Origin: Oscillospiraceae bacterium
GTDB lineage: Bacteria; Bacillota; Clostridia; Oscillospirales; Oscillospiraceae
NCBI GenBank assembly: GCA_902778665.1
Contig: CACYYN010000015.1
Location: 1-56,324 of the forward strand
Length of the DNA: 56,324 nucleotides
Direction of reading: 5' to 3'
In this document: positions 40,974 through 48,630 of the stretch, piece after piece
Position numbering within the stretch: position 1 is the stretch's first letter
Layout: every line of letters starts with the position of its first letter
Position numbers and translations under genes: made by a program
The notes under the pieces: generated by a model
What the model was told of the DNA's origin: nothing
Databases searched by the model: none
The model's input: the letters and a program-made list of their open reading frames with translations, nothing else

Positions 40974-41120
40974 CCCCGGCCTACGGAAGTACAGCAAACG
41001 GTAACAAAATGTAATAATTTATTTTTTTGTTTTCAGATTATTCAAATTTTTTCTCTGTGACAATATTGTGATTGTGCACGTGATATAGTATCCACATAAA
41101 AAACAAAGGAGGGAAATGCC

Positions 41121-41306
41121 ATGAGGTTCCTGACAGCTCTGTGTTCCGTTATACTGTTCATTGTGTTTTTGAATGTGGTTTTGTTTATCGTGGATTGCCT
41201 CATCCTCGGAGAGGTTTTTTCTCTGATACTCAGTCCCACGGTAATCCTGCCCGCATTGCTGTTCGGCTCGCTTCTGTTTCTGTTTCTTGCGCCGAAAAAA
41301 TGTTGA
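41121..41306 (+). CDS. Small membrane protein (61 aa)
   Basis: A 61-residue protein with two hydrophobic helices (about 4-28 and 33-57) and a tail APKKC. AAAGGAGGG sits 6 bases before ATG, and an AT-rich promoter-like stretch with TATAGT lies about 30 bases upstream. It is monocistronic and ends at a terminator (41331-41374). I do not recognise it. The strong ribosome binding site and two clean membrane segments argue it is real. Confidence 0.65.
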   Translation: MRFLTALCSVILFIVFLNVVLFIVDCLILGEVFSLILSPTVILPALLFGSLLFLFLAPKKC

Positions 41307-47164: not shown

Positions 47165-47950
47165 CTATTCCTGTGCTTTTTCCTGAACTTCTTCCATCAC
47201 CTGCTCAAAGGATTCGCAGAGAAATGCTTTTCCGTCCTTCAGGCGATAGATCATATCCGCCTTCCGAAGGGTGTTGAGGCGATGGGCAACCATCAGCATG
47301 GTGCAGGACCCCATCAGAGACTCAATTGCCTCCTGCACCTGCTTCTCGCTCTCTGCGTCAAGGGCACTGGTGGCTTCATCAAAGAGAATAAATTTTGCTT
47401 CGCGAAGGAGTGCTCTTGCAATGGCAATGCGCTGGCGCTGCCCACCCGACAGGTTGTCCCCGCCCTCCAGAATCTCCCGGTTGAGTCCATCCGGATGGGA
47501 CAGCACCAGATCCTCGAGACCGACACATTGGAGGTTTCCGTCTTATGCCGCAGGATCACTTTGTTTTCGGCAATCGGACGCATAAAGGCACGTGTTATCC
47601 AGGCCGAAACCGGAATCGCAATCAGATAGAAAAGCAGCATTACAGGCATCTTCACCAGTGCCACAATCGCCACAAAGACCACGTCTTCCGACATCATCAG
47701 CACATCGTTGGCATTTTCATAGATCAGCTGTCCGATGAACTGCACATCAGAAACCAGCTTGGAGAGGATCTTTCCGCTCCTGGTTGTATTATGATATTTG
47801 ATGGAAAGAAGCTGGAGTTTGTTGACAATGGCCATCTTAAAGCCCGACTCCACAGCTCTGGTAAACCTGTGATATATTTTATTATCCAGCCAGGCACAGA
47901 CCAGGTTGACGGTGAGGGCAATTGCCGTCCAGCTGTTTGACCATAGTCTT
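47165..47950 (-). pseudogene. ABC exporter remnant (truncated, internally deleted, frameshifted)
   Basis: Two fragments of one ABC exporter (fused membrane and ATPase domains) lie in different frames. Bases about 47521-47940 encode a middle piece of the membrane domain, with KLQLLSIKYHNTTRSGKILS and VSDVQFIGQLIYE. Bases 47165-47520 encode the last part of the ATPase: LSGGQRQRIAIARALL, FDEATSALD and AHRLNTLRKAD. Missing are the N-terminus, the rest of the membrane domain and the Walker A and Q-loop region; the junction near 47521 shifts the frame. The gene cannot make a transporter. Because its lost N-terminus is unknown, I cannot tell whether it was a peptidase-containing exporter of GG-leader peptides, though such a peptide is encoded next door. 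Confidence 0.85.
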
Positions 47951-48111
47951 TCCTCCTGCTCTTCAACCTGCGTTATCGTGGCAGAAACCGACGGACTGTT
48001 GATTGTTATATAATATACCCCTCTTTCGCATTGTCTGTCAAAAGAAAATACGCAGTCGTCTATCATTTGCAAAAGAAGAACAATTATTTGCATTAGATTT
48101 ACAAATATTTC

Positions 48112-48140
48112 TTGCTCTCGCCGTCCTTGTGTGTTATGAT
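48112..48140 (+). promoter_or_regulatory. Candidate upstream promoter of the LysM peptide gene
   Basis: TTGCTC (48112-48117), 17 bases, TATGAT (48135-48140). The -10 is framed by a TGTGT...ACACA dyad (48129-48144). Confidence 0.45.
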
Positions 48141-48184
48141 ACACAGAAGAAACCGTCTGAAAACGGGAATCATAAAGCGTGGTC

Positions 48185-48220
48185 TGTGTGACAGTTGTGT
48201 GACAGATGCGATGCTATAAT
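48185..48220 (+). promoter_or_regulatory. Promoter with direct repeats ahead of the LysM peptide gene
   Basis: A perfect TATAAT (48215-48220) has no -35 hexamer. In its place are two direct repeats of TGTGTGACAG starting at 48185 and 48196, 11 bases apart, so they sit on the same DNA face. This is the look of an activator-dependent promoter. Confidence 0.6.
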
Positions 48221-48295
48221 GGATAGCGTACAGGGACGAAATCCAACAGCATGACCAGAAGAATTGTAAAAAATTTTATGAAGGAGAACAATAAA

Positions 48296-48574
48296 ATGGA
48301 AAAACTGAACGATCTTGAACTTGAGCAGGCTTCCGGCGGCGTTCTTTCCGATCCGGTCAACGGTATGCAGGGTAATGTGGTGTTTACTCCCGGTACCGTC
48401 AATTATGCGCCCAATCAGCTTACACCCTACGTTGTCAAGAGAGGTGACTGCCTGAGCGTGATTGCACAGCGCAACAACACCACCGTCGGCATTCTGCAGA
48501 ATATCAACCATATCCCCAATCCTGACCAGATTAAAGAGGGTATGACGATCATGATCCCCAGAAGATTCTTCTGA
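48296..48574 (+). CDS. Double-glycine-leader LysM protein
   Basis: A 92-residue protein of unusual make-up. Residues 1-15 (MEKLNDLELEQASGG) match the double-glycine leader of peptides exported and cut by peptidase-containing ABC transporters: LNDLELEQASGG fits L-S/N-x-x-E-L-x-x-(I/V/A)-S-G-G. Residues about 45-88 are one LysM domain (VVKRGDCLSVIAQRNNTTVG, NHIPNPDQIKEGM). Residues 16-44 form a flexible Gly/Asn/Pro-rich linker. Cleavage after GG15 would release a 77-residue LysM protein with one cysteine (Cys52). ATG 48296 is chosen as AAGGAG lies 9 bases upstream; an in-frame ATG at 48251 lacks a site. A peptidoglycan-binding secreted factor or bacteriocin-like protein is inferred. Confidence 0.82.
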   Translation: MEKLNDLELEQASGGVLSDPVNGMQGNVVFTPGTVNYAPNQLTPYVVKRGDCLSVIAQRNNTTVGILQNINHIPNPDQIKEGMTIMIPRRFF

Positions 48575-48587
48575 CAAAAAAGAATCT

Positions 48588-48630
48588 GCTCTGCGGCTGC
48601 ACAGAAGCGTGCAGCCGCAGAGCTTTTTTT
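48588..48630 (+). terminator. Terminator of the LysM peptide gene
   Basis: A perfect 15-bp stem (48588-48602 with 48609-48623) and a seven-T tract (48624-48630). Confidence 0.92.

Follow-up and report, generated by a model that had tools for sequence, protein, structure and literature searches.

A LysM-domain protein with a double-glycine leader in a genus of Oscillospiraceae, and its association with a C39 exporter and a shared promoter box

Double-glycine exporters are regarded as short-peptide machines, and the question raised by the locus described here is whether such an exporter may also deliver a peptidoglycan-binding domain to the cell wall. The window, by which we mean the whole 56,324-nucleotide stretch of DNA analysed (contig CACYYN010000015.1 of an Oscillospiraceae bacterium), contains a 92-amino-acid open reading frame (ORF) on the plus strand (ATG at 48296, stop codon ending at 48574, from the window sequence and its translation), for which an initial annotation proposed a double-glycine (GG) leader fused to a LysM domain and export by a bacteriocin-type exporter. 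An alternative in-frame ATG at 48251 would yield 107 amino acids; the start was assigned to 48296 because the sequence AAGGAG at 48281-48286 is located 9 nt ahead of it. The features of the locus are the following.

41056..41089, plus strand: second copy of the promoter box, preceding a 61-amino-acid hydrophobic ORF (41120-41305)
48187..48220, plus strand: promoter box TGTGAC-N5-TGTGAC-N11-TATAAT, an 11-bp direct repeat ahead of a -10 hexamer, also present before other GG-leader genes of the genome and genus
48281..48286, plus strand: ribosome binding site AAGGAG, 9 nt 5' of the start codon
48296..48574, plus strand: gene for the GG-leader LysM precursor (92 codons and a stop), with relatives and under purifying selection
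48296..48340, plus strand: double-glycine leader of 15 residues, MEKLNDLELEQASGG, with a predicted C39 cut after residue 15 (recognition rule of PMC6363468)
48341..48427, plus strand: linker of the predicted mature protein, residues 16-44 (AlphaFold model, mostly low confidence)
48428..48559, plus strand: LysM domain, residues 45-88 (Pfam profile and AlphaFold model)
48588..48630, plus strand: intrinsic terminator, a 15-pair stem (48588-48623) and a T-run (fold z = -6.2)

Both parts of the protein were found where the initial annotation had placed them. Residues 1-15 (MEKLNDLELEQASGG) possess L(-12), E(-8), L(-7), A(-4), G(-2) and G(-1), which is the GG-leader motif of L(-12), E(-8), L(-7) and a hydrophobic residue at -4, and the GG is invariant in alignments A1 and A2. 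The recognition rule of ComA is L(-12)-X3-E(-8)-L(-7), and LahT has pockets for leader positions -4, -7 and -12 (PMC6363468). The LysM domain matches PF01476 over residues 45-88 (profile positions 1-43 of 43; 45.7 bits against a cut-off of 20.9; 6e-12). An AlphaFold model built from alignment A2 has a helix in the leader (residues 6-12) and a beta-alpha-alpha-beta LysM fold with block pLDDT of 84-88; the model as a whole is weaker (mean pLDDT 68.8, pTM 0.47), with pLDDT under 50 at residues 1-4 and 14-34, and on this model the linker of residues 16-44 is probably flexible. No bacteriocin family model matched the protein in Pfam and NCBIfam scans, and no NHLP or Nif11 leader model was among its 12 NCBIfam matches at E up to 10.

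The view that a strong ribosome binding site, a repeat-bearing promoter and a perfect terminator denote a maintained gene is upheld by the AAGGAG sequence, the promoter box, the 15-pair stem and the substitution rates: dN/dS is 0.07-0.25 in six of seven pairs of relatives (dS being about 1.7, close to saturation, in two of these six usable pairs), indicating that the reading frame is under purifying selection. Full-length orthologues of the window gene are encoded in G020 (~58-59% identity) and G087 (~54-55% identity), in both cases inside an exporter cluster and behind the promoter box with one mismatch. The comparison with G087 gives a dN/dS of 0.25 (dS 1.7), that with G020 is not computable owing to saturated dS, and five other pairs give 0.07-0.17. 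Both orthologues are longer and contain two tandem GG motifs, the window gene beginning at the second; these tandem motifs (L063 6323-6703, minus strand; L064 7896-8279, minus strand) possibly allow two cuts per precursor.

The initial annotation called for a C39-peptidase ABC transporter in the same genome, and one is present: the sole C39 match of the assembly, which is 84% complete, lies at C11:24891-25280 within a 731-amino-acid ABC protein that passes TIGR03796 (NHLM ABC1) with 932.4 bits against a cut-off of 853.3. Its ABC2-like neighbour is just below the TIGR03797 cut-off (704.7 against 709.4 bits), and a 141-amino-acid HlyD-like neighbour is below that of TIGR03794 (34.4 against 156.2 bits, over the first 52 model positions only). 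The locus holds a GG peptide of its own (71 amino acids, ..LNDVTGG LTTFPDKDGVDRHSWFV..) beside a DUF218 protein. The window gene (contig C15) and the exporter are on different contigs of this assembly; adjoining the window gene is the remnant of an ABC exporter (47165-48144, minus strand), with a PF00664 membrane piece (9e-10) and a PF00005 ATPase end (4e-10) in different frames. A LysM search of the same genome gave eight matches, six of them in frames of at least 314 amino acids and two in short frames, namely the window gene and a 68-amino-acid gene (C30:3982-4110) that has a GG leader too, MELNEKILKDENLEEVQGG.

If the protein were cytosolic or exported by some other route, its N-terminus could resemble a GG leader by chance, and the separation of gene and exporter on two contigs, together with two genomes of the genus that carry such genes and have no C39 match (G059 and G094, considered below), fits this explanation. 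The leader is, however, a constant companion of the domain. All 99 distinct LysM ORFs of up to 160 amino acids in the fetched loci of the genus have GG before the LysM, as do none of 10 longer LysM ORFs. The short ORFs were collected without requiring GG; a script recognized the motif in 98, and the remaining one, which it overlooked because of a spurious first domain match, reads SVSGG. Homologues that keep the LysM and lack the GG, which would have told against the original proposal, were not encountered among these 99. The fetched loci were chosen partly by LysM similarity or the GG profile and are thus non-random; the Pfam search of the window's own genome is unbiased, and there GG is present on both short LysM ORFs. 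In loci of other lineages, two of four distinct short LysM ORFs have GG, both from genus g84 of the same family, and two do not (L094, L242). A leader expression combined with a start codon and ribosome binding site retrieved 136 ORFs from 74 loci of the genus (1.16 Mb) and none from letter-shuffled copies; in 44 loci of other lineages (0.31 Mb) it retrieved one, which is a GG-LysM gene from a different genus in the family. With no shuffled copy yielding the motif and GG on 99 of 99 short ORFs, with the exporter co-occurring and linked, and with leaders common to CW_7, PepSY and bacteriocin-like cargo, a chance GG was rejected, and we regard coincidence as extremely unlikely.

Profile A1, made from 19 GG-LysM proteins and applied at a threshold of 1e-9 to a set of 101 genomes of the genus, matches in 63; the 150 matches listed are in 55 genomes, and 148 of them begin at profile position 1-7, i.e. 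in the leader, all of these being counted as profile matches. TIGR03796 is over its cut-off in 63 of the 101 genomes. Among the matches listed, the exporter is present in 53 of 55 genomes with GG-LysM versus 10 of the 46 others (Fisher 7e-16, uncorrected for kinship), so that 53 genomes have both, two have GG-LysM without exporter, 10 have the exporter only and 36 have neither; 60 of the 150 matches are within 20 kb of an exporter. Absence of a C39 transporter from every genome carrying the gene, the other outcome that would have counted against the original proposal, is thus not what is found. The two genomes without it (G059, 93% complete; G094, 83% complete) have GG-LysM genes and no C39 match in their draft assemblies, which argues against strict dependence on the exporter unless the drafts miss C39. 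Weaker A1 matches beyond those listed occur in eight genomes (G058, G069, G083, G096, G018, G042, G062 and G067): the fetched exporter loci of G058 and G083 include a GG-LysM ORF, G096 has C39 in a shortened frame, and G018, G042 and G067 each have a weak A1 match and no C39 match. Consequently, the exporter-only count of 10 is too high and the count of two without exporter is possibly too low. CW_7 parallels LysM: 55 of the 101 genomes have it, the exporter is present in 51 of these, and 39 of 84 hand-merged places are within 20 kb of an exporter. Export through a bacteriocin-type exporter is, in sum, well supported by inference from leader, co-occurrence and linkage, with G059 and G094 on the other side of the account.

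LysM is one of several GG-leader cargoes in the genus. The 136 GG-leader ORFs of the 74 loci comprise 83 with LysM, 32 with CW_7 and 21 others, including three false cases, which were discarded as LSGGQ signature motifs of ABC proteins; in 40 exporter-centred loci there are 26 with CW_7, 21 with LysM, 11 others and 3 false, one locus having been used for genomes with two exporters (the copy near a GG-LysM match in G025, G030 and G066, the other copy in G010). Pfam supports CW_7 (Cpl-7) and PepSY behind GG leaders (3e-28 and 8e-11, respectively), and SH3_3 is sub-threshold (0.0014 and 0.0027). A peptide of the window's own genome, encoded under the promoter box, passes Bacteriocin_IIc (27.4 against 27.1 bits), and a G087 ORF behind the same box (L285 115-801, plus strand) has a Nif11 leader (32.7 against 32.3 bits) and a sub-threshold Hint-like region. 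Short GG peptides with the core D-x-[VL]-[DN]-R-[DH]-S-W-[FL] adjoin exporter and DUF218 genes (L054 4330-4545, minus strand; L063 4796-5050; L064 6407-6613; and others). Another group consists of GG-leader proteins of ~145 amino acids that are beta-rich by eye and have an HFNG motif near the end (L058 6267-6707, L059 7852-8289, L066 3066-3518, L131 8048-8479, L147 12900-13337 and L156 9152-9583); of these, L059 and L066 were scanned and gave no Pfam match.

The promoter repeat belongs to a genus-wide box and regulon. Upstream of the window gene, the box reads TGTGACAGTTG TGTGACAGATGCGATGC TATAAT, the whole element (48187-48220) being TGTGACAGTTGTGTGACAGATGCGATGCTATAAT; the window contains two boxes against 0.03 expected from shuffles. 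The ORF behind the second copy has no Pfam match, and short hydrophobic ORFs are also found behind boxes in G024 (L255) and G087 (L281). A sigma-70 scan near the window gene gave three promoter-like sites, none on the plus strand, which is explicable if an activator replaces a good -35 box. Exact TGTGACA is present within 170 nt upstream of 43 of 83 GG-LysM genes and 10 of 32 GG-CW_7 genes. The pattern TGTGACN5TGTGACN11TATNNT, with up to two mismatches, has 25 sites in this genome versus one for the reversed pattern, and TGTGAY-N5-TGTGAY-N11-TATNNT has 455 versus 4 in the 101 genomes, the sites lying in 50 of them. At least two boxes are present in 43 genomes, 38 with the exporter and five without TIGR03796 over the cut-off, and fewer than two in 25 of the 63 exporter genomes; in this genome, neither the exporter operon on C11 nor its own GG peptide has a box.

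GG precursors are located behind 30 of 65 box sites inspected in three genomes. The 25 sites of this genome precede nine GG precursors, one GG-leader fragment, nine proteins with a Sec-type signal by eye and six membrane or unassigned products; GG precursors follow 10 of 20 inspected sites in G024 (22 found) and 11 of 20 in G087 (23 found), the latter count including the Nif11-leader ORF L285, which the leader expression missed. Site L278 of G087 was left out, the expression having matched inside the Sec-type signal of the first ORF. PepSY is found behind the box in both forms: the G024 protein (L265) has a GG leader, and that of G087 (L283) has, by eye, a Sec-type signal. A family of ~130-amino-acid proteins with Sec-type signals by eye (MFKTVLTY..) is repeatedly encoded behind the box in G000 (C4:90193, C7:64793, C13:64946, C32:227, C33:57267 and C53:382; L180, L181, L185 and L192-L194).

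The best explanation of these observations, to which we assign a probability of about 0.7, is that the C39 exporter releases the GG-LysM protein to the wall under co-regulation, as part of an envelope response. Specifically, the NHLM-type ABC exporter on C11 would, through its C39 peptidase, recognize the 15-residue leader and cut after Gly15; the exporter would release a protein of ~77 residues consisting of a flexible linker and one LysM; the LysM would bind peptidoglycan and so retain the mature protein in the wall; the activator-type promoter, with its 11-bp direct repeats ahead of the -10 hexamer, would co-induce GG precursors and small Sec-type-looking proteins; and the mature protein would act on the walls of the producing cells and their kin. 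The leader, the LysM, the one C39 exporter of the assembly, its co-occurrence and linkage in the genus and the common promoter are computational observations; recognition, cleavage, export and wall binding, like the regulator and the role, are what we infer from the sequences of draft assemblies.

As to the regulator, the protein that binds the box is probably an OmpR-family response regulator. The genus box resembles the WalR box TGTWAH-N5-TGTWAH (PMC9210968) in being a direct repeat of hexamers with N5 spacing, but differs as TGTGAY-N5-TGTGAY in its fourth base, G rather than A/T. A response regulator of ~268 amino acids is encoded in several LysM clusters (L059 6465-7271, L060 8492-9301, L066 4029-4838); it has a clear receiver and only a weak winged-helix match in the two scanned (L059, L060), and is a candidate regulator of the box genes. 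Its presence also fits a scheme in which cells export the protein as a density signal and sense it with a two-component system, as quorum signals do use GG leaders and C39 exporters (PMC6363468). Against such a pheromone stand the many divergent paralogues per genome and the folded LysM of 44 amino acids, and we think it very unlikely. We know of no GG pheromones that resemble divergent, multi-paralogue, folded LysM proteins.

Release of the LysM protein to the producer's wall accords with its neighbours. In other bacteria, proteins with DUF218 function in the envelope. In the loci of the genus, 19 of 34 DUF218 membrane-protein genes lie at most 150 nt behind a GG gene, which in 13 cases encodes GG-LysM; for the remaining 15, no preceding GG gene was detected. 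Large proteins with signal-peptide or lipoprotein-like starts (..DHDGNLEFVAA..) alternate with GG-LysM genes (L056 4162-6267, L066 7081-9099, L059 13999-15765); L056 and L066, the two that were scanned, matched no informative Pfam family. An envelope role is favoured by the pairing with DUF218 and by the admixture of Sec-type proteins behind the box: co-regulation with Sec-exported-looking proteins leans towards envelope upkeep, and co-regulation with bacteriocin-like GG peptides leans towards competition.

Two other roles, both named as possibilities in the initial annotation, were considered. Wall-binding domains such as CW_7 and LysM occur in lysins. A protective or immunity function, in which mini-domains of the LysM, Cpl-7 and SH3-like types form a coat on the wall of the producing cell against lysins, bacteriocins or phage, would account for the DUF218 neighbours and for exporter-proximal cargo in which non-catalytic wall binders (CW_7, LysM) predominate; it fits poorly with the PepSY, Gly-zipper and short acidic GG peptides that likewise lie behind the box, and we consider it quite unlikely. 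A bacteriocin-type toxin that docks by LysM on the peptidoglycan of rivals, blocking growth sites or recruiting lysins alone or with a partner GG peptide, is kept in play by the bacteriocin-like members of the regulon, i.e. the Bacteriocin_IIc peptide of this genome and many diverse GG peptides; several GG-LysM paralogues per genome (at least 10 matches in G097, the highest among the matches listed) and the description of NHLM-type exporters with microcin-type precursors (PMC2887384) point the same way. The predicted mature protein is nevertheless a bare LysM with no recognized catalytic or membrane-active part, which makes killing by this protein alone less likely, and proteins with Sec-type signals are also under the box; overall, a toxin is an unlikely reading, though one to be taken seriously. 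The preferred reading, wall delivery within an envelope response, may extend further: the NHLM exporter could serve this genus as an additional general route of secretion for small folded proteins of the envelope, with tens of genes forming a regulon behind a single envelope-responsive box; in this regulon, LysM, Cpl-7, SH3-like and PepSY proteins would have a GG leader in place of a Sec signal, beside true bacteriocin-like peptides. We offer this wider proposal tentatively, at somewhat less than even odds.

The protein has likenesses to several known systems. Like the GG-leader/C39 ABC systems of ComA, LahT and PCAT (PMC6363468), it has the leader motif L(-12)..E(-8)L(-7)..GG and a C39-ABC exporter in the genome, linked in relatives; the cargo there is a short peptide, pheromone or RiPP core, whereas here it is a folded peptidoglycan-binding domain. 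Likeness to the NHLM/NHLP system (TIGR03794, TIGR03796, TIGR03797; PMC2887384) consists of the passed TIGR03796 model, the TIGR03797-like partner and the G087 ORF barely over the Nif11-leader cut-off behind the same box, but the window leader is short and has no NHLP or Nif11 match, and the HlyD-like partner has only 141 amino acids. The LysM is of the ordinary type found in wall hydrolases such as LytE (PDB match 8i2e), from which the window protein differs in having a GG leader instead of a signal peptide (none by eye) and no catalytic domain. Polymorphic toxins (PMC3482391) likewise use LysM, SH3 and PGB adhesion domains, with LysM/SH3 serving for wall or carbohydrate binding in conflict proteins; there LysM accompanies toxin domains, whereas here it is nearly the whole predicted mature product.

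The broader search for GG-LysM that the initial annotation recommended bore out recurrence in part. Applied to samples of the family (250 genomes), order (394) and phylum (398), with a start at profile position 8 or lower and a frame under 160 amino acids as criteria, profile A1 found the architecture across its own genus and in g84 and, among the matches listed, nowhere else; weak cases could fall outside those listed. Two g84 genomes have it: in G183 (100% complete), three GG genes, one for LysM, one for CW_7 and one other, are clustered within ~3 kb of C39, and G254 has its GG-LysM gene and C39 on different contigs, with a 72-amino-acid match on C3 that has no clean GG leader. A scan of the contigs of named genomes yielded 14 relatives, and a short GG-LysM ORF was not among them. 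In a plasmid scan, 52 records had matches; most of the ten listed are annotated as wall hydrolases or LysM proteins, and two records, one of which carries no annotated feature, match over at least 80% of the query.

No description of GG-leader LysM proteins was found among the open-licence PMC papers listed, and scans of both GG-LysM proteins of this genome yielded no Pfam or NCBIfam model joining a GG leader with LysM. PMC11322243 was rejected as a precedent, its available text concerning a DUF4177 protein; PMC6393860 mentions a C39 locus of archaea that encodes numerous proteins with GG leaders, and in the available part of that paper these are not LysM proteins. Export by GG leader is already known, and the LysM cargo and the box regulon appear to be new.

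If folded wall-binding domains are routinely exported in this way, some short ORFs of gut-type bacteria annotated as 'LysM domain' or 'hypothetical' have been assigned the wrong route, and GG-leader mining for antibiotics would have overlooked a class of cargo. The standalone LysM and Cpl-7 mini-proteins would then be ready-made wall-binding tags, and the box would provide a direct handle on the timing with which GG-leader wall proteins are produced.
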